Source of the DNA: Rhizobium sp. BT04
GTDB taxonomy: Bacteria > Pseudomonadota > Alphaproteobacteria > Rhizobiales > Rhizobiaceae
Reading direction: 5' to 3'
Length of the DNA: 64,000 nucleotides
Assembly: GCF_030053135.1 (NCBI RefSeq)
Contig: NZ_CP125652.1
Location: 2,929,001-2,993,000 of the forward strand
Each line of letters opens with the position of its first letter. Position 1 is the first letter of the stretch. Made by a program: the position numbers and the translations under genes. Below, piece by piece: positions 29,654 to 64,000 of this stretch. The notes under the pieces were generated by a model that saw only the letters and a program-made list of their open reading frames with translations, searched no databases and was not told the origin of the DNA.

Positions 29654-30535
29654 CTACCGCCTCTCAAGCAAGCGGCAGATTTCCTCGAGCTGCTCAAGCG
29701 ACTTGTAGGAAATTTTAATCTGGCCACCGCTGGTCTTGTGATTGATCGAGACATCAAGGCCGAGCGCATCGGAAAGCGTTCGCTCCAAGGCCAGCGTGTC
29801 GGAATCCTTCTGATCTCGCCGCAACGCCGGCTGCTGCGGCTCCGATTGCGCCTTGATATTGTTTTGCGCCAGCTTTTCCGCGTCACGGACCGACATGCCC
29901 TTGGCGACGATCGTGCGGGCAAGGCTTGCCGGGTCGGGGGTAGAAACCAGCGCGCGGGCATGACCAGCCGACAGGCTGCCGGCGGCAAGCATGTCGCGCA
30001 CGGGATCGGGCAGTTTCAACAGGCGCAGGGAGTTGGCGACATGGCTGCGGCTTTTGCCGATGATTTCGCCGAGATCATTCTGGGTATAGCCATACTCGGC
30101 AATAAGCTGCTCATAACCCAGGGCTTCTTCAAGCGCATTGAGATCCGCTCGTTGTACGTTTTCGACAATGGCGATCTCCAACGCCGTCTTGTCGTCGACA
30201 TCCCGGATAATCACCGGGATCTCAATCAACCCGGCCAGCTGGGCTGCTCGCCAACGGCGTTCGCCGGCAATGATTTCGTATCGGTCCCGGTCCATCGTTC
30301 GCACGACGATCGGCTGCACGATCCCGTGCTGGCGAATAGAACTTGCAAGATCATGCAGTTCAGCGTCATCAAAAAAACGACGGGGATTGCGGGGATTGCG
30401 GCTGACAAACTCGATCGGGATCATTCTGTCGGCACTGACAGTCCGCTCAGCTTCCACCGGGACAGGCTGATCCATTTCCCCAATCAGCGCTGCAAGGCCA
30501 CGGCCCAATCGCCTCTTCGATACGTCGTCATTCAT
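29654..30535 (-). CDS. parB: Chromosome-partitioning protein ParB
   Basis: CTP-dependent clamp that loads at parS sites and segregates the origin with ParA. The 293-residue protein has the N-terminal LGRGLAALIG tail that contacts ParA, the ParB/Srx core with GERRWRAAQ and ENVQRADLNALEEA, a central helix-turn-helix (QNDLGEIIGKSRSHVANSLR) and a C-terminal dimerisation domain (about 240-293). It lies 32 bases downstream of parA. Four parS-like sites are nearby at 31964, 33923, 33950 and 40389. Confidence 0.96.
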   Translation of the reverse strand: MNDDVSKRRLGRGLAALIGEMDQPVPVEAERTVSADRMIPIEFVSRNPRNPRRFFDDAELHDLASSIRQHGIVQPIVVRTMDRDRYEIIAGERRWRAAQLAGLIEIPVIIRDVDDKTALEIAIVENVQRADLNALEEALGYEQLIAEYGYTQNDLGEIIGKSRSHVANSLRLLKLPDPVRDMLAAGSLSAGHARALVSTPDPASLARTIVAKGMSVRDAEKLAQNNIKAQSEPQQPALRRDQKDSDTLALERTLSDALGLDVSINHKTSGGQIKISYKSLEQLEEICRLLERR

Positions 30536-30567
30536 GATCTACACTCACCTACGCTCCTGATATGATA

Positions 30568-31362
30568 TTAGGCGGCCAGCCTTTGACGTTCCCTTTGGAT
30601 GACCTCGGAGGCCAGCTGCAGATAGGCCTGACTGCCCGCGCATTTCAGATCATAAAGAATAGCCGGCTTGCCGTAGGAGGGCGCCTCGGAAACCCGGACA
30701 TTGCGCGGAATTAACGTGTGATAAACCTTTTCGCCGAGATGCGTGCGAACATCATTGACCACTTGCTGGGCAAGATTGTTGCGCGCATCGAACATCGTCA
30801 GGACGATCCCTTGAATATCCAGGCGCGGATTAACCGTCCGACGAACCTGGCTGACGGTCTCAAGCAACTGGCTCAACCCCTCCAGCGCGAAGAATTCACA
30901 CTGCAGCGGCACTAGCACGGAATGCGCTGCCGCCATGGCATTCATCGTCAGCAGATTGAACGACGGCGGGCAATCCAGAAGAATATAGGAAAACGCCATT
31001 GCCTCGGGCGACGACAGCGCCTTGCGCAATTTGAACACCCGGTCGCTCTGCTGCGAAATCTCCATCTCGATACCAAGCAGATCCATCGTCGAAGGAACAA
31101 TGAAAAGGTTCGGCACTGCTGTTTCGAGGGTGACGTCAGTGATGCTACGCTCCCCCACCATAAGGTCATAGGAGGAGAGTTTCCGGTCGCGGCGATCGAT
31201 GCCGAGGCCGGTGCTGGCATTACCCTGCGGATCGAGATCGACGATCAAGACACGCTCACCGATAGCGGCAAGGGCCGTTGCCAGATTGATCGCGGTGGTG
31301 GTTTTACCAACGCCGCCCTTCTGATTTGCGATGGTGATTATTCGGTGTCGTTCGCCAGCCAT
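30568..31362 (-). CDS. parA: Chromosome-partitioning ATPase ParA
   Basis: Walker-type ATPase that binds the nucleoid and pulls ParB-bound origins. 264 residues; deviant Walker A NQKGGVGKTTT (13-23) with both lysines, VDLDPQGNASTGLG (Walker A'), LLDCPPSFNLLTMNA (Walker B) and the C-terminal RNVRVSEAPSYGKP segment typical of chromosomal ParA/Soj. It follows rsmG by 19 bases and precedes parB by 32, one leftward operon. Confidence 0.96.
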   Translation of the reverse strand: MAGERHRIITIANQKGGVGKTTTAINLATALAAIGERVLIVDLDPQGNASTGLGIDRRDRKLSSYDLMVGERSITDVTLETAVPNLFIVPSTMDLLGIEMEISQQSDRVFKLRKALSSPEAMAFSYILLDCPPSFNLLTMNAMAAAHSVLVPLQCEFFALEGLSQLLETVSQVRRTVNPRLDIQGIVLTMFDARNNLAQQVVNDVRTHLGEKVYHTLIPRNVRVSEAPSYGKPAILYDLKCAGSQAYLQLASEVIQRERQRLAA

Positions 31363-31381: not shown

Positions 31382-31999
31382 TTAAACCAAGCGCCGGAGA
31401 TTTGATATTTCCAAAATAACAGATTCCTGCTCGACGGCGCTCTTATGTTCTAACAGATCGAATTCCCACCGACCACGTGCTTTGTCGATTTCCCTCAGGT
31501 AATCCCGGCCTTTATGAAAAAAGCCACGACAATTGTCATTGCCTAGCATCCAGGGGGCCGAATATCCGATCAGTCCGTCGAGATCGGCGAGAGCTCGGGC
31601 GGAAATTGCGCCGCAATCGCGGATTTCGACAGCCGCATCCTCGATTCGGATAGGATGCACGCTCCCGCGCGCATCCGTCTCCCGCAGCGCCGTCCGCAGA
31701 AACGCTGCTTTTTTGTGGTTGCTCTCGACCAGGTGGACCCACCCGTCCCGCAATTCAGCCAAGTAGATCGCGGTAATCACCCCGGGGAAACCGCCGCCGC
31801 TTCCAAGATCGACCCAAGTGGTCGGTTGCGGATGGATCTGAAAAATCTGGCTGCTATCGGCGATATGCCGATGCCATAGATCATCAAGCGTCGACGGCGC
31901 CACCAGATTGATGGTTTTAGCCCACTTCTGAAAGAGCGTTGCGAAGTGCTGGAGCCGTTCCTGTGTTTCACGTGAAACACGCAAGCCGTTTAATTCCAT
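31382..31999 (-). CDS. rsmG: 16S rRNA m7G527 methyltransferase
   Basis: Methylates guanine 527 of 16S rRNA; loss in other bacteria gives low-level streptomycin resistance. 205 residues, SAM-binding motif [12 protein letters not shown] near residue 68 and the family [14 protein letters not shown] segment. Its N-terminal residues VSRET are encoded by a perfect parS site, as is seen in rsmG of many bacteria. It lies between mnmG and parA in the classic origin-proximal order. Confidence 0.95.
31964..31979. promoter_or_regulatory. parS site 1 (perfect)
   Basis: TGTTTCACGTGAAACA, an exact match to the bacterial parS consensus, lies inside the 5' end of rsmG. It is the expected ParB loading site. 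Confidence 0.95.
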
Positions 32000-33922: not shown

Positions 33923-33938
33923 CGTTTCACGTGAAACC
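33923..33938. promoter_or_regulatory. parS-like site 2
   Basis: CGTTTCACGTGAAACC: the central 14 bases GTTTCACGTGAAAC are a perfect match to parS; only the outermost base on each side differs. It lies in the short gap between mnmE and mnmG. Confidence 0.85.
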
Positions 33939-33949
33939 CGAGGGCTCAA

Positions 33950-33965
33950 GGTTTCACGTGAATCA
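33950..33965. promoter_or_regulatory. parS-like site 3
   Basis: GGTTTCACGTGAATCA matches parS at 14 of 16 positions. It starts 11 bases after site 2 and overlaps the stop codon of mnmE (33963-33965). The close pair may act as one unit. Confidence 0.7.
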
Positions 33966-37489: not shown

Positions 37490-38536
37490 TCACGCGCCCC
37501 CACGCATCCACCCACCCCGCACGCGATCGACCAGCAGCCGCACATGCTCGGGATCGGCCTGCGGCGTGATGCCGTGACCGAGATTGAAGATCAGCGGCCC
37601 ATTGCCGAGATGCTGCAGAATATCGTCGATACCCTCTTCCAGCGCCCGGCCGCCGGCAACGACGCGCATCGGATCGAGGTTGCCCTGCACCGGCCCGTCT
37701 TTCTGAAGCTCAGCGGCAAAGGCCAGCGGTACCGACCAGTCGAGGCCGATCGCATCGGCGCCGGTCCTCTGGCGATAGGACTTCAGCTGGTAACCGGCGC
37801 CCTTGGCAAAGGCAATGATGCGCGCCTTAGGCCGCCGCGATTTGACCGAAGCGATCATTCGCGCGACCGGCCGGAGCGCGAAGGACTCGAATTCCTTCTC
37901 ACCGAGAACGCCGGCCCAGGAATCGAAGATCTGCACGGCATCGGCGCCGGCATCGATCTGAGCGACAAGATAATCGGCCGAGACGTCGGCCAGCAGCATC
38001 AGGAGATGCTCGAAGGCGCGGGGATACCTGTAGGCGAAGAGGCGGGCAGGCGCCTGATCCGGCGTGCCGTGACCGGCGATCATATAGGTCGCAACCGTCC
38101 AGGGCGCGCCGCAGAAGCCGAGCAGCGTCGTCTCATCAGGCAGTTCCCCACGCAGCCGCCGCACCGTCTCCAGAACCGGCCTGAGATAATCGACAACCTC
38201 TTCGCCATTCAATCTGCCGATACCCTCTTCATCGATCGGATCCATCTCCGGGCCGTGGCCTTCGGTAAACCGGACATTCCGTTTCATCGCGTCGGGGATG
38301 ACCAGGATATCGGAAAACAGAATGGCGGCATCGAAGCCGTAGCGGCGGATCGGCTGCAATGTCACTTCGACGGCATGATCGGGCGTGTAGCAGAGATCGA
38401 GGAAACTTCCGGCCTTTGCCCGTGTCTCTCGATATTCCGGGAGATAACGTCCCGCCTGTCTCATCAGCCAGAGAGGAGGAGGGGAGAGGCTTTCGCCATC
38501 CAGAACCCTCATGATCTTTCGGCGCGTGTCGCTCAA
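37490..38536 (-). CDS. hemE: Uroporphyrinogen decarboxylase
   Basis: Removes four carboxyl groups from uroporphyrinogen III. 348 residues with the signature [41 protein letters not shown] and the C-terminal [16 protein letters not shown]. The frame begins at TTG 38536 with AGGGAAG upstream; ATG 38512 eight codons later is an alternative. It is the last leftward gene before the proposed replication origin, the same neighbour as at the Caulobacter origin. Confidence 0.95.
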
Positions 38537-38937
38537 GCGCTTCTTCCCTATAAAAAATCAAAGATATTTTAAAAGGTTTCTATTTCTTAGAGTCGGTGTC
38601 TATCAAGGATTAAAATCCATCCACCGCCGATGCCATTTGTCGCGTGCCGGCAAAAAACATCGCAGCGATTTTCCTCATTCTGCCGAAATTCCGGGGAGAA
38701 GCCGAATCTGAAAATGATTCCAAATCCTTCTGGGCGGCCGATTTTCCCAGCGCTTGTGGATAAGCTGTGGACCAGTTCCGGCAAACTCAACCTGTTCCCC
38801 GTCATCCACAGAGCCTGCTGAAACCGATCTGCAAAATTCGAAATGTGGATAAGCCGGCATGTTTTCCCTTGCCCGAGACGGCCTCGCCGCCGTAGCTCTG
38901 TTTCATCCAGTCTTTTCAACAGGCAGCGGAAAATAGC
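38537..38937. other. Putative chromosomal replication origin (oriC)
   Basis: A 401-base gene-free gap between divergent hemE and ppsR. It holds two perfect DnaA boxes on the minus strand (TGTGGATAA at 38755-38763 and 38844-38852), one near-match on the plus strand (TCATCCACA, 38802-38810) and a weaker TGTGGACCA at 38766-38774. An AT-rich block at 38546-38590 next to hemE could be the unwinding element. GANTC (CcrM) sites are at 38590, 38704 and 38716. The origin of Caulobacter lies between hemE and the ppsR-family gene, and genes here change direction at this point. It also contains the promoters of both flanking genes. Not proven by sequence alone. Confidence 0.8.
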
Positions 38938-39759
38938 GTGGAGAACAGAACGAACTTCTTTCATCTGCATCTGATTTCTGACTCAACGGGAGAGACTCTG
39001 ATCTCCGCCGGCCGCGCCGCATCGGCACAGTTCCGATCGGCTCAGCCGATCGAACATGTCTATCCGCTGATCCGCAACCGCAAACAGCTGCTGCCGGTTC
39101 TGCAGGCGATCGACGAGGCGCCGGGCATCGTGCTCTACACGATCGTCGACCGGGAGCTTGCGAGCCTGATCGACGAGCGCTGCGTCGAAATGGGTGTCGC
39201 CTCGGTGAACGTGCTGGAGCCGGTGATGAATGCCTTCCAGATCTATCTGGGCGCCCCGTCGCGCCGCCGGGTCGGCGCCCAGCATGTGATGAATGCCGGC
39301 TACTTCGCGCGGATCGAAGCGCTGAATTTCACCATGGATCACGACGACGGTCAGATGCCGGACGACTACAACGATGCCGACGTCGTTATCATCGGCATCA
39401 GCCGCACGTCGAAAACACCGACCAGCATCTACCTCGCCAACCGCGGCATCAAGACGGCGAACATTCCGATCGTCTATGGCGTGCCCTTGCCGGAGAGCCT
39501 GTTCATCGCGAGCAAACCGTTGATCGTCTGCCTGATCGCCACCACCGACCGTATTTCCCAGGTGCGGGAAAACCGTGTGCTCGGGGCGACGCAGGGTTTT
39601 GATCGCGAACATTATACCGACCGCGCCGCGATCTCCGAGGAGCTGAAATATGCCCGCTCGCTCTGCGCCCGCCACAACTGGCCGCTGATCGACGTTACGC
39701 GCCGCTCAATCGAGGAAACCGCCGCGGCAATCGTTGCCCTGCGCCCGAAGCTGCGCTAA
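38938..39759 (+). CDS. ppsR: PEP synthase / PPDK regulatory protein (kinase-pyrophosphorylase)
   Basis: Bifunctional regulator (DUF299 family) that phosphorylates and dephosphorylates a threonine of phosphoenolpyruvate synthase or pyruvate phosphate dikinase. 273 residues; N-terminal [11 protein letters not shown] and the P-loop-like [18 protein letters not shown] are family signatures. Start is GTG 38938; no earlier start fits. The homologue flanks the origin in Caulobacter and Rickettsia. Which dikinase it controls here cannot be told from the window. Confidence 0.92.
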
Positions 39760-39791: not shown

Positions 39792-40391
39792 ATGATACCC
39801 AAACTCATCCTTGCGTCATCGAGCCCCTTTCGACGGATGCTGATGGAAAATGCCGGTCTATCCTTCGAGGCGCATGCCGCCAACATCGATGAAAGAGCGG
39901 TCGAAGCCCCGCTGGAAAACGCCGGCGCAACGCCGGATGCCGTCGCCCTTGTCCTGGCCAAGGCCAAGGCCGAGGATGTCGGCAGCCGTTTTCCGGACAG
40001 CTTGGTTATCGGTTCGGATCAGACGATGTCGCTTGGCGACCGGGTCTTTCATAAGCCGAAAGACATGGTCGACGCGGCGAATCACCTTCAAGCCCTTTCG
40101 GGAACGACCCACCGACTGAACAGCGCTGTCGCAATCGTCAGCAATGGCGTGGTTCTGTGGCAGCATCTCGCCCATGCGGAACTGACGATGCGGCCGTTGA
40201 CGGCGGATTTCATCGCCAGGCACCTGGCACGCGTCGGCGACAGGGCGCTTTCCAGCGTCGGCGCCTATCAGTTGGAGGGTGAGGGCATTCAGCTTTTCGA
40301 GAAAATCGAGGGTGATTATTTCACCATTCTCGGCCTGCCGATGCTGCCGCTCTTGAAAAAATTGCGAGATCTCGGAGCGATCGATGGGTGA
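39792..40391 (+). CDS. maf: Maf family nucleoside triphosphate pyrophosphatase
   Basis: Hydrolyses non-canonical or specific nucleoside triphosphates to monophosphates; some members affect septum formation. 199 residues with [31 protein letters not shown] (catalytic aspartate region), HKPKD and [20 protein letters not shown]. Which nucleotide it prefers is not readable. Its last eight bases overlap the start of aroE. Confidence 0.9.
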
Positions 40392-41241
40392 TTCACGTGA
40401 AACATTCGGACCGGAAGCGTTTGTCACGGGCTTTCCTATCAAACACTCGCGCTCGCCGTTGATCCACGGATATTGGTTGAAGACGCTCGGCTTGCCAGGC
40501 AGCTACCGCGCCCATGAAGTGGCACCCGAGGCCTTTGCCGATTTCATCGCCACGCTGAAAGATGGCAGCTCCGGCTTCGTCGGCGGCAATGTCACCATTC
40601 CCCACAAGGAACTGGCTTTCACGCTCGCCGATAAGCCGGATGCCTTGTCGCGTGAACTCGGTGCTTCGAATACGCTCTGGCTGGAGGATGGCGTCCTGCA
40701 TGCGACGAATACCGACGGTCGCGGCTTCACTGCCAATCTCGACGAACGTCATCCGGGCTGGGACCGGCATGACACGGCGGTCGTCTTTGGCGCCGGCGGT
40801 GCCAGCCGGGCGATTATCCAGGCGGTCCGCGATCGCGGTTTCAGGGAGATCCACGTCGTCAATCGCACCGTCGAACGGGCGCGTGAGCTGGCGGACCGCT
40901 TTGGCCCGAAAGTTCGGGCCCACCCGGCCGGCGCACTTGCCGAAGTCATGAAAGGCGCCGGTCTCTTCATCAACACCACCTCGCTCGGCATGGACGGCGA
41001 GGCCGCACCGCACCTCGATTTCACGCCGCTTGCAGCCGATGCCGTCGTTACCGATATCGTCTATATCCCGCTGAAGACGCCGATCCTGGTGCAGGCGGAA
41101 GCGCAGGGATTTCCCGTCGTCGATGGTCTCGGCATGCTTCTGCACCAGGCCGCGCCGGGCTTCGAGAAATGGTTCGGCCAGCGTCCGGTCGTCGACGCGG
41201 CACTGCGCGAGCTTATCATCGCCGATATGGACGGGCACTGA
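40384..41241 (+). CDS. aroE: Shikimate dehydrogenase
   Basis: NADPH-dependent reduction of 3-dehydroshikimate, fourth step of aromatic amino-acid synthesis. 285 residues: HSRSPLIH (shikimate binding), NVTIPHKE with catalytic Lys75, NTDGRGF, the NADP motif GAGGASRA and the C-terminal [14 protein letters not shown]. It overlaps maf by 8 bases and coaE by 1. Its codons 2-7 contain a parS site. The trp genes at 55-58 kb use the same pathway's product. Confidence 0.95.
40389..40404. promoter_or_regulatory. parS-like site 4
   Basis: TGATTCACGTGAAACA matches parS at 15 of 16 positions. It spans the maf stop and the start of aroE, and is the only parS found on the right side of the proposed origin. 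Confidence 0.85.
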
Positions 41242-41852
41242 TGCTGACGATCGGCCTCACCGGCTCCATCGCCATGGGAAAATCGACGGCGGCAAAGCTC
41301 TTCGCCGAGGCGGGAATTCCGTTGAACGATTCCGATGCCGTGGTCCACGATCTCTATACCGGTGAGGCTGCACCCCTGGTGGATGCTGCTTTTCCCGGCA
41401 CAATGAAGGATGGTGCGGTCGACCGGCATGAGCTCGGCCGCCAGCTTGCTCTTGATCCCGACGGCTTCAAACGGCTGGAGGCGATCGTCCATCCGCTGGT
41501 TCGCAAACGCGAGACGGAATTTCTGGCGCGACAGCGCGCCGCTGGCGCCGAGATGGTATTGCTCGATATTCCTTTGCTCTTCGAAACCGGCGCCGAGGAA
41601 AGAGTCGACGTCATCGTCGTTGTCAGCGCCGATCCACAGATTCAGCGCCAGAGGGTGCTTGCGCGACCAGGGATGACCGAGGAAAAATTCGATATGATTC
41701 TCTCCCGTCAGACGCCGGACGCCGAAAAGCGCCGCCGGGCCGATTATCTGATCGACACCAGCCAGAAGATCGCAGTCACGAGAAAACGAGTGCTCGAGAT
41801 CGTCGCCGACCTGAAAACGCGGATTGCCAAGGGAGATTTCCGGAATGCGTGA
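41241..41852 (+). CDS. coaE: Dephospho-CoA kinase
   Basis: Last step of coenzyme A synthesis. 203 residues, P-loop GSIAMGKST near residues 8-16, NDSDAVVHDLY, LLDIPLLFETG and VVSADPQIQRQRVLAR are typical. The ATG shares its A with the aroE stop (TGATG), and the end overlaps dnaQ by 8 bases. The open frame starts earlier, but only from 41241 is the sequence family-like. Confidence 0.95.
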   Translation: MLTIGLTGSIAMGKSTAAKLFAEAGIPLNDSDAVVHDLYTGEAAPLVDAAFPGTMKDGAVDRHELGRQLALDPDGFKRLEAIVHPLVRKRETEFLARQRAAGAEMVLLDIPLLFETGAEERVDVIVVVSADPQIQRQRVLARPGMTEEKFDMILSRQTPDAEKRRRADYLIDTSQKIAVTRKRVLEIVADLKTRIAKGDFRNA

Positions 41853-60684: not shown

Positions 60685-61005
60685 TCAGGCAGCGTTCGAA
60701 ATCCAGTTCGAAAGAGCGGTCTTCGGCTTGGCGCCGACCGAAATATCGGCCACTTCGCCACCCTTGAAGATTGCAAGCGTCGGGATGGAACGAACACCGA
60801 ACTGGGCGGCGAGTTCCGGGTTCTCATCGATATTCAGCTTGGCAACCTTGACCTTGCCTTCCAGCTCGACGGCGATTTCTTCCAGGCTCGGAGCAATCAT
60901 CTTGCACGGGCCGCACCATTCAGCCCAGAAATCGACGACGACGGGTTCTGCGGATTCCAGAACTTCCGACTGGAAGTTATTGATATCGACTTTCACGGTA
61001 GCCAT
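60685..61005 (-). CDS. trxA: Thioredoxin
   Basis: Small disulfide reductase, 106 residues, active site WCGPC (30-34) in [20 protein letters not shown], cis-proline in SIPTLAIF. The frame is open for 54 codons upstream, but ATG 61005 follows AAAGGAG and fits the family. It lies 71 bases downstream of addA. Confidence 0.96.
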
Positions 61006-61076
61006 GGGCTGCTCCTTTACCTCGGGTGTTGAACCACATGTGATGGTGCGGTGCCGAATTTTCAATGTCCGGTATT

Positions 61077-64000
61077 TCACTTTGTCTTGACTGCTGCAAG
61101 CGCCAAACCGAGCGCTGCTTCGCTCAGCGTGTAGAGCGAGCCATTTTCCGTATAGACAAGCATGCAATCGATCCGCTTGTCGGGATAGAGCGGCGTCAGG
61201 ATTTCGCGATAGATCGCCAGCTGCGCCCGGTGCGCGAAGGGGATGGCCTCTTCCGTTGCCGGCGGTACCCGGTTGGTCTTGTAGTCGAGAATGACGACGC
61301 GATCGGCAAGAACGGCAAGCCGGTCGATGCGGCCGGAGACGGCATAGCGCCGGTCTTCGAGCGTCAGGGTTCCCATGATCGAGACTTCGGGCTGGGCCTG
61401 CGCCCCGAGCACGGCCTGCAGGCCCTCCTCGTCCAATAGTTTCAGAACCGAATCGACAAGTTTGCGCCGTTCGGCTTCCGGCCAGAACCGAGCCGCCCGC
61501 TCGGCATAGCGGCTCGCCGCATAGGGCCGCTCGCCAGGTGGAATTTCGGGAAGCGCCTGCAGCATGCGATGGATCAGCCTGCCCTTCTCCAGCGAACGAT
61601 CGCTGCGCTCCTTCTCGGTAAACAGCGGTGAGACGACGAGCAGGCCGCCCTCGTCTTCATCGATGATCGTCCCGGCGCCGGAGGGGCTGAGCGGCCGGGG
61701 CAGCTCAGCCTGCGGCGGCAACGGCCGCAGCAGGCCGTCCGGCAGCGTCTCCTCGCTGTCACGCTGCTCGCTGCGGTCGGTCCGCTCGAAACTCCGTTCC
61801 ACCCGTGGCACGCGCCATTTGATACCTGGCCATTCGCCGTCGGGACCGGAGAATGTAGTCGCTTCCACATGCGGATGGTCGTGGCTGAGTGCCGCCGAAA
61901 TCATCATATGCCAGGTGTCGTTGTTCACCCGCACGCCACGATAGCCGCAGACGACTAGCCGGTCGGCAGCACGCGTCATGGCGACATAGAGCAATCGGCG
62001 GTATTCTTCCTCCGCCAGGATCTGGATCCGCGCCGCATCGTCCTGCGTCAGCGAATTGGAAAGATCCGAGACTGGAACCCAGGCGGGCATCGGCGGCTCG
62101 TCGGCATCGGTCTCGATAAGGCGAAGCTTGGGCAGATGGGTATGGGTGAAGGCCTTCGAACCGCCGTCGACCAGGAAAACGATCGGTGCTTCCAGGCCCT
62201 TGGAGGCATGCACCGTCATGATCCGCACTTCGTTGCGTCCCTTGTCCTGCTCGCGCTTCACCACGGGCGCTTCGAGCTCCAGCGTCGAGATGAAGGATTG
62301 CAGCCCGGGAAGACTGGAACTCTCGTGGTCGAGCGTGAAGGTCAGGAATTCGTCGAGGATATCGCTGACCTCTGTGCCGAGCCGGGCAAGGAATTGCCGT
62401 CGCCCGCCCTGGCTGCCCAGAACACGCGCAAAGAAATCATGAACCGACAGGCTCCTGGATTGCCGAAGGAACAGCTCTAGCTTCTCGACAGCAGCGCGGA
62501 AGCGTTCGGTGCCGTCGGCGGCGAAGCTTTTGAGGTGGCTCCAGACGCTCTCATTGTCGCCGCGCAGGCCGGCAATCGCAAAGATGTCGTCCTCGGAGAG
62601 ATCGAAAAGCGGGCTCTTCAGCACGGCGGCGAGCGAAAGATCGTCTTCCGGCAGCAGCAGGAAACGGCCCAGCGCCAGCAGATCCTGCACGGCGATATGG
62701 CTGGTCAGCAACAGCCTGTCGGCGCCGGCGACCGGAATGTCGCCGCGGCGCTTCAAGGCGCGCGTCAAAGCATTGACGAAGGCGTCGCGCTTGCGCACCA
62801 GCACCAGGATGTCGCCGGCTTCGATCAGGCGCTCCTTGCCCTTGTCGACGATCGTTTCACGCCCGACGAGGGTACCGATCGAATGGGCGATCCGTCGTGC
62901 CAGGATTGCCGCCGGCGCGCTTTCCGGCGTCGCATCGAAGGGCGCCGTCCAGTCCTCCTCCTTCACCACCGCTTCCGGCGCGACCATGTCCCAGAGATCG
63001 ACGGCGCCGGGATGTCCGATGCGGCTGGAACGATGCACGACCGGTTCGCCGACAGCGCTGAGACCGCGCGCATTGTCCGATGTCCTGAAGATCTCGTCGA
63101 CGGCTTCGAGCACGTCGGCGGTCGAGCGGAAGGAGAGCGGCAGCCGGACCGAGGAAAAGCTCTGGCCGCTGTCGGAGACACGCCGCCGCGTCCGATCGCT
63201 CTCCTCGGAAAAACGCTCGGGCCGGGCGCCCTGGAAGGAATAGATCGACTGTTTCTCGTCGCCGACGGCAAACAGCGTGCGCACGATCGGCCGGGCGCTT
63301 TCGCCGGAGAAGAAATCCTCGGCGAGCGACTGGATGACGCTCCACTGGATCGGGCTGGTGTCCTGCGCCTCGTCGACGAGGATATGGTCGATGCCGCGAT
63401 CGAGCTTGTAGTGGATCCAGGGGCCGACGCCGCTTTTCGTCAAAAGGTCGGCGGTACGGGTGATCAGATCCTCGAAATCGAGCTGGCTGCGCTGCTTCTT
63501 CAGTTCCTCATAGTCGCGGTCCAGCCGGTCGGCGAGCACGAGTGCCGCATGTGTCGCGCCATACATCCGCATCAGTTTCAGCCGGTCACGGCTGGCGGCG
63601 ACATGCGTGCGGGCAGTGGCAATAGCGGCCGCCAACTGCGGTGCCTCGGCAAGCATGGCCTTGACTGAGAATTGCGAGTCCGCCTTCGGCTCGCCTTTCG
63701 CTGTCAGAAAGATTTTCTCGAGAAACTGAGCGCGCCTTGCGTCATCGCGTTCCCGCCCGGCTAGCCTGAGGCCGTAGGCAACCTCCTGCGCCTTGGCGCC
63801 ACCCTTCTGGTCGGCAAGCGAGAGATAGAGCTCCAGCATGCCGCCCGAAAGCTCCGGCAAAGGCCAATATTGCGCCGCGATCCGGCTTTCCGTGTCGCCG
63901 GCGGCAAGGCCGAGCTTTTGGCGCAGGACCTTCTCCACGCCGCCCTGCTGTTCGGCCGTTGCGGTGAAACGACGGATGGCGTTGCGGTTGGCGACGATAT
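61077..64000 (-). CDS. addA: Double-strand break repair helicase/nuclease AddA, N-terminus missing
   Basis: Subunit of AddAB, which processes DNA ends for recombination. The frame is open at the right edge of the window, so the N-terminal Walker A region is missing; 973 residues are visible. Seen in order: [14 protein letters not shown], Walker [29 protein letters not shown] (motif III), [20 protein letters not shown] (motif V), [17 protein letters not shown] (motif VI), and the C-terminal RecB-type nuclease with [11 protein letters not shown] and VILDYKTNR (catalytic Asp and Lys). addB would be expected further upstream, outside the window. Confidence 0.93.

Follow-up and report, generated by a model that had tools for sequence, protein, structure and literature searches.

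A family-conserved sequence block in the probable chromosomal replication origin of Rhizobium, between hemE and ppsR

The intergenic region between hemE and a ppsR-family gene in a Rhizobium chromosome almost certainly represents the origin of replication (oriC), and its best-kept part is a short block which, judging from sequence comparison, is probably an unwinding-side element of Rhizobiaceae origins. The analysis covered a window of 64 kb, the whole stretch of DNA examined here (positions 2,929,001–2,993,000 of contig C6, which has 4,676,374 bp; the genome comprises 6.99 Mb in 7 contigs). An origin at this place had been proposed in the initial annotation of the window, and location, DnaA boxes, lowest duplex stability, strand skew and conservation all agree with it. 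As an origin the gap is ordinary and expected for the group, and its location was foreseeable from relatives; for specialists, the points of interest are the block at 38576–38613, its misfit with the DnaA-trio rule and its methylation site. The block provides a simple handle for locating origins in draft genomes of the family, as well as a defined target for studying how rhizobial origins open and are timed without CtrA boxes. The features of the region are collected in Table 1.

Table 1. Coordinates of features in and around the hemE-ppsR gap (positions in the window).
Feature	Position	Strand	Remarks
parB (29654–30535) and parA (30568–31362)	29654–31362	-	Pfam ParB_N/HTH_ParB, AAA_31/CbiA
parS-like palindrome, perfect	31965–31978	no strand	motif scan
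parS-like site, perfect	33924–33937		motif scan
parS-like site, 1 mismatch	33951–33964		motif scan
hemE, uroporphyrinogen decarboxylase	37490–38536	-	Pfam URO-D, E 1.4e-109
hemE-ppsR intergenic region, proposed oriC	38537–38937	no strand	401 bp
Least stable 50 bp, proposed DNA-unwinding region	38540–38589	no strand	nearest-neighbour sum -54.3
Family-conserved origin block, best-kept part of gap	38576–38613	+	37 genus rows
Block core TTCTTAGAGTCGGT (family consensus TTCTWWGASTCKGT)	38584–38597	+	
GAGTC, CcrM-type GANTC site in core	38590–38594	+	37/37 genus rows
DnaA-box-like repeat CAAGGATTA in block	38604–38612	+	4 mismatches from TGTGGATAA, by eye
Further GANTC sites: GAATC 38704, GATTC 38716	38704–38720		position not fixed in genus
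DnaA box, perfect	38755–38763	+	at most 1 mismatch in 31/37 genus rows
DnaA box, 1 mismatch	38802–38810	-	at most 1 mismatch in only 5/37 genus rows
DnaA box, perfect, best kept	38844–38852	+	at most 1 mismatch in 37/37 genus rows
Weak DnaA box TTTTCAACA, 2 mismatches, just before ppsR	38913–38921	-	
ppsR-family gene, Kinase-PPPase	38938–39759	+	Pfam PF03618, E 3.2e-87
parS-like site, 1 mismatch	40390–40403		motif scan

Pfam assignments and strands bear out the gene order first described, with the reading direction flipping at the gap from hemE, read leftward, to ppsR, read rightward. HemE of the window shows 93–96% identity to its counterparts in loci assigned by name to Rhizobium leguminosarum, R. 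phaseoli and R. esperanzae, which suggests that the organism is a Rhizobium from this group. The other Pfam assignments in the window include Rho, Maf, shikimate dehydrogenase, CoaE and an exonuclease. The ppsR-family gene is taken here as the one called COG1806/DUF299 in the literature. The likeness to the setting in Caulobacter that had been pointed out holds for the gene pair identified by Pfam, the origins of Caulobacter and Rickettsia being placed between hemE and COG1806 in a passage of PMC1914354. The proximity of parAB and parS was also confirmed, the perfect parS-like sites lying 4.6 and 6.6 kb from the gap. The scan of the window with an assumed parS consensus yielded 8 strand matches (4 sites) against 0.69 expected (0/100 shuffles). 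Three of the parS-like sites lie left of the gap, and the one at 40390–40403 lies right of it, where maf and aroE adjoin.

As had been stated, the gap is the only gene-free stretch of more than 300 bases in the window. Two larger apparent gaps both contain ORFs, the first being filled by the coaE ORF (41169–41852) and the second holding an ORF at 60685–61167 that is thioredoxin-like by eye. An alignment of the genus was built with 37 rows (the own genome and 36 relatives), and the gap measures 398–403 bp in all 36 rows that have both borders (own genome counted). An antisense ORF at 38587–38970 was not counted as a gene, because it is interrupted at varied places among the 36 genus relatives. 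In the hemE start region (38510–38536), the ATG at codon 9 is absent from 3 of 36 genus rows (L046, L056 and L066), and an upstream TTG/GTG start is therefore favoured. A 901-bp region was matched in 59 of the 61 genomes searched (own included), the distant ones matching chiefly in the hemE coding sequence. In two related genomes (G009 and G018), contigs of more than 4 Mb begin within hemE or within the gap, as though the molecule had been cut open at the origin. No direct or inverted repeats were reported for 38500–39000, and an Rfam search of 38000–39500 with E up to 5 returned a single miRNA match, far below the gathering score.

The two perfect DnaA boxes (TGTGGATAA) that had been listed at 38755 and 38844 are both present, and the near box at 38802 was found to carry one mismatch and to lie on the opposite strand. 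Among 1000 dinucleotide shuffles of the gap, none reached its two perfect boxes, none reached its three boxes with at most one mismatch, and one reached its six boxes with at most two mismatches. The perfect box occurs only 11 times in the whole 6.99-Mb genome (28 times for the reversed control); the two perfect boxes of the gap start 89 bp apart, and the next closest pair in the genome is separated by 18 kb. As the dnaA gene is 446 kb away, this cluster does not belong to a dnaA promoter. A regular box spacing of about 40 bases, claimed earlier, did not hold up: the starts are 47 and 42 bases apart with the middle box reversed, and conservation of such spacing is contradicted by the middle box, which keeps at most one mismatch in a small minority of genus rows (Table 1). 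The weak box just before ppsR, absent from the initial annotation, has at most two mismatches in 37/37 genus rows and a single mismatch in 4 of them. Perfect DnaA boxes are missing altogether from 14 of the 37 genus gaps and from 56 of 80 family stretches, and 6 of these 80 are without even a one-mismatch box. A second well-kept stretch, 38862–38873 (TTTTCCCTTGCC; TTTTCCACTTGCC in many relatives), is partly DnaA-box-like and sits between the 38844 box and ppsR.

The AT-rich block that had been marked at 38546–38590 was verified, with 22% GC against 61% for the window. Nearest-neighbour calculation gave -54.3 for 38540–38589, against a window mean of -77.7 (sd 4.5), and no less stable 50 bp exists in the 64 kb. 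This minimum adjoins the conserved block in the window. A stability scan of the family (one 480-bp stretch per row, 75 rows) revealed that the least stable 50 bp is centred between -60 and +10 bp of the start of the block core in 63/75 rows.

Strand skew was sampled along the chromosome in 40 stretches of 20 kb from C6 (about one per 110 kb) and two from the window, 42 in all, with C6 taken as circular for the fits. Mean GC skew is -0.026 in the 22 samples left of the gap and +0.005 in the 20 samples right of it. Of the two-switch models for GC skew, the best has its switches at 0.67–0.78 Mb and 2.76–2.87 Mb and accounts for 55% of the variance. On the circle, 0.63 Mb is opposite the gap, and the switches fit an origin at the gap with a terminus opposite. 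When GC and TA skew were combined, the best fit had a switch at 2.54–2.65 Mb and the third best at 2.98–3.09 Mb. In an equal-arm origin scan of 234 positions, the gap comes 9th by GC skew and 3rd by TA skew, and the cumulative skew within the window shows no minimum at the gap. As to the chromosomal GC-skew minimum expected here in the initial annotation, the samples agree with an origin at 2.967 Mb and do not pinpoint it, the resolution of the sampled skew being only some hundreds of kb. No dif-like site was found with an E. coli pattern, and the terminus was therefore not located independently.

Within the gap, the conserved block runs over 38576–38594 (GTTTCTATTTCTTAGAGTC) and 38604–38613 (CAAGGATTAA), where no base is kept in fewer than 97% of the genus rows; it had been listed before only where it overlaps the AT-rich block. 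The middle of the gap has drifted to about 40–70% agreement with the window per 20-bp stretch in the genus rows, and the only other kept run of at least 7 bases is TCAACAG at 38916, a part of the weak box. The block core is complete (14/14) in 37/37 genus rows; among 3000 letter-shuffled stretches, none reaches 14 and 3 reach 13. The right half of the block contains DnaA-box-like repeats, which are clear in some relatives and decayed in the window: the repeat at 38604 corresponds, by eye, to TGTGGATTA in L156 (1 mismatch) and TGTGGATTC in L148 (2 mismatches).

The core was then scored in 80 family genomes drawn from 146 with a hemE match among 151 searched, and the score was 14 in 64 genomes, 13 in 5, 12 in 6 and at most 11 in 5. 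The TTCTWWGASTCKGT form was derived from the genus rows and the first 60 of these genomes, of which 53 have the complete core; the second batch of 20, which was selected for remoter relatives and reduced genomes and had no part in defining the pattern, was less favourable (11/20). By our own count, the 80 genomes come from 73 genera, 60 of which have at least one sampled genome with the complete core, and four further family genomes outside the 80 have cores of 14, 13, 14 and 14 at a hemE beside ppsR. Three family genomes of 1.1–1.5 Mb (L152, L159 and L293), with core scores of 9, 10 and 11, have a block that is lost or altered. From other families of the order, 12 genomes (from 24) were scored for the core, which reaches 13 in one and at most 11 in the rest. 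Outside the family, the longer block pattern was found in 0/288 genomes of the class. As far as these samples go, the element is a feature of the window's GTDB family and not of the class. Its conservation among relatives is partly shared ancestry. A family-wide conserved origin block is not named in the portions of open-licence PMC text searched, and we do not claim that the block is undescribed.

The block is also specific to its locus. With up to 3 mismatches allowed, the 18-mer TTTCTATTTCTTAGAGTC occurs once in the own genome, as a perfect match at the gap. Scanning of the longer pattern TTCTWWGASTCKGTKNNNNNCNNGGATTA over a public genome collection detected at least 119 stretches, and 80 loci were examined among the matches listed. 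In 77 of these 80 the hit is 45–176 bp from hemE (measured from the first aligned hemE residue), 2 are contig ends next to ppsR, and the exception is an Omnitrophota MAG (L174) with neither hemE nor ppsR in the locus, so that 79/80 loci among the matches listed fall in the hemE-ppsR region; about one chance hit is expected by our estimate from information content. Two genomes carry duplicated hemE genes. At the copy on the ppsR side, the core scores 14 and 13 of 14 and there is one perfect DnaA box; at the other copy, in both genomes, the score is 10 of 14 and no box with at most one mismatch is present. Because core and boxes occur only at the ppsR-side hemE, the element is tied to the origin locus more than to hemE; as both genomes are of one genus, they count as one evolutionary event. 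Two records, L193 (labelled Bacillus subtilis SK6B4) and L212 (Parasphingorhabdus MAG), contain a rhizobial-type hemE, the origin block and ppsR, and are probably mislabelled or contaminated.

The gap holds three GANTC sites, only one of them inside the block, and this one is nearly invariant: of the 75 family rows whose core scores at least 12, 72 have GASTC. In 64-bp stretches around the core, 184 GANTC were counted in 75 family rows (shuffle mean 36.2, maximum 50 in 200). Alignment on the core itself accounts for one site per row, and 1.45 per row are left when that site is discounted. Pentamers of the same letters in the same stretches number 55 (CTNAG), 48 (AGNCT), 33 (TCNGA), 13 (GTNAC), 1 (CANTG) and 1 (ACNGT). 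A second GANTC lies 8 bp before the core site in 21/57 rows, and there are more on the AT-rich side. A RAMA-domain gene, taken as CcrM-like, is present in the own genome and in 80/80 family genomes; as a marker of CcrM, the domain matched only in Caulobacter among 14 control genomes. Since the genomes without the block have the gene too, its distribution gives no support for or against a coupling of block and CcrM, and no co-loss of the two was seen among the 80 family genomes, the three small genomes with a lost or changed block retaining the gene. GcrA-like gene(s) were also detected in the own genome. In Caulobacter, CcrM acts only indirectly on replication according to a passage of PMC10073500. 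Methylation control of the origin via the block is speculative.

Taken together, these features suggest how initiation might proceed at the gap. DnaA would bind the boxes at 38755–38852 and the weak box at 38913, and a DnaA oligomer would form on, or be brought to, the left-hand block at 38576–38613, so that DnaA itself would be the reader of the block. The AT-rich 38540–38589 would then melt and enable helicase loading, and replication forks would depart both ways from the gap.

The role of the block in unwinding has to be weighed against other readings of the same sequence. Within an oriC at the gap, the block could mainly be the promoter or operator of the leftward hemE, without a direct part in unwinding, for instance in a GcrA/CcrM-type form with GANTC between -35 and -10; we give this a minor but appreciable chance. 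The block is 46–48 bp from the hemE start in 36/36 genus rows and beside hemE in 77/80 named loci among the matches listed; read leftward, CTTGAT, 17 bases and AATAGA have a weak sigma-70 look by eye, and the genome has both CcrM-like and GcrA-like genes. A passage of PMC8959179 indicates that hemE transcription matters for replication in Caulobacter, and both roles could coincide. However, among the matches listed, the 77 named loci have the block at anything between 45 and 176 bp from hemE, and the six -35-like positions are only partly kept in the family (49–51% at three, 69–88% at three); by contrast, nine of the fourteen core positions are kept at 96–100%. The second hemE copy in the two genomes of one genus is also without the block, which stays by ppsR and the boxes. 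A further reading denies the gap its origin function: it would only be a regulatory region of hemE and ppsR, with replication starting elsewhere nearby. DnaA boxes can regulate genes, and the skew cannot separate the gap from sites a few hundred kb off. Yet the genome has no other pair of perfect boxes closer than 18 kb, the stability minimum and the family-wide constraint are both located at the gap, and related origins lie at the same gene pair in the passage of PMC1914354, all of which makes a purely regulatory gap highly improbable.

Another rival reading is that the block is the canonical DnaA-trio unwinding system (BUS) of Pelliciari et al. 2021 (PMC8287927), whose rule asks for at least three NAN trios no more than 16 bp from a DnaA box that carries up to two mismatches. 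The outline of the block is BUS-like, with box-like repeats, a short spacer and then the AT-rich side, and TTATTATTAG-like tracts stand at the block position in the family relatives L292, L295, L296 and L298, as does TTTTTATTAG in L076, a genome of another family. The rule is satisfied somewhere in 11/37 genus gaps (30%), but letter-shuffled gaps satisfy it nearly as often (mean 21%), and 65/75 family rows have C in place of the middle A that the second trio requires. In the gap of the window itself, no DnaA-trio or BUS was found by the published rules on either strand. A canonical BUS is therefore quite improbable for the block. As TTATTATTAG-like tracts occur in a few lineages, the Rhizobium block may have descended, with changes, from a trio tract. 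It is conceivable, though rather unlikely, that a family-specific element has replaced the DnaA-trio, with the T-rich core and the near-invariant CcrM site opening Rhizobiaceae origins in a manner tied to methylation.

The chromosomal origin of Sinorhizobium meliloti is reportedly adjacent to hemE and equipped with DnaA binding sites (Sibley, MacLellan and Finan, 2006). The gap resembles it in both of these features. It is also alike in having no CtrA motif, as a passage of PMC4433202 states for the S. meliloti origin, and in S. medicae, the sister species of S. meliloti, the same block lies 49 bp from hemE (L215). CtrA of Brucella was not found to bind the origin according to the passage concerned of PMC2877005. 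The Caulobacter crescentus origin (Cori) and the gap share the location between hemE and the COG1806 gene, DnaA boxes and an AT-rich stretch, which in Cori is the opening region (passages of PMC1914354 and PMC8959179). They differ in CtrA boxes: the passage of PMC8959179 describes five in Cori, whereas the gap has no exact TTAA-N7-TTAA and a single one-mismatch site at 38558. Caulobacter-type CtrA boxes were accordingly rejected for the gap, which agrees with the rhizobial pattern in having no exact CtrA box. A Caulobacter-type origin RNA, CcnA (PMC8959179), was considered for the gap and then dropped; the passage in question concerns S. meliloti. For IHF, which has a site in Cori, the gap has one candidate site with a single mismatch at 38601, its letters only partly kept in the family. 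The ori sequences described in the relevant passage of PMC1914354 are similar only among closely related bacteria.

BUS origins of the B. subtilis type and the gap both have box-like repeats by an easily melted region, but the gap does not follow the trio rule; the words Caulobacter, Rhizobi and Sinorhizobium are absent from the main text of PMC8287927. A likeness of the window block to the 13-mers of E. coli oriC was judged too weak, 21/500 shuffles being as good, and the best of the four sequences compared was that of L076, from another family (4/500 shuffles). The Dam (GATC) sites of E. coli oriC and the GANTC sites of the family are both concentrated at the unwinding side, although the methylase differs. 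If the family-specific element does open these origins, the methylation state of the core would link their opening directly to the cell-cycle methylase, and the block would be an alphaproteobacterial counterpart of the E. coli oriC Dam sites, among bacteria in which CtrA does not bind the origins studied.
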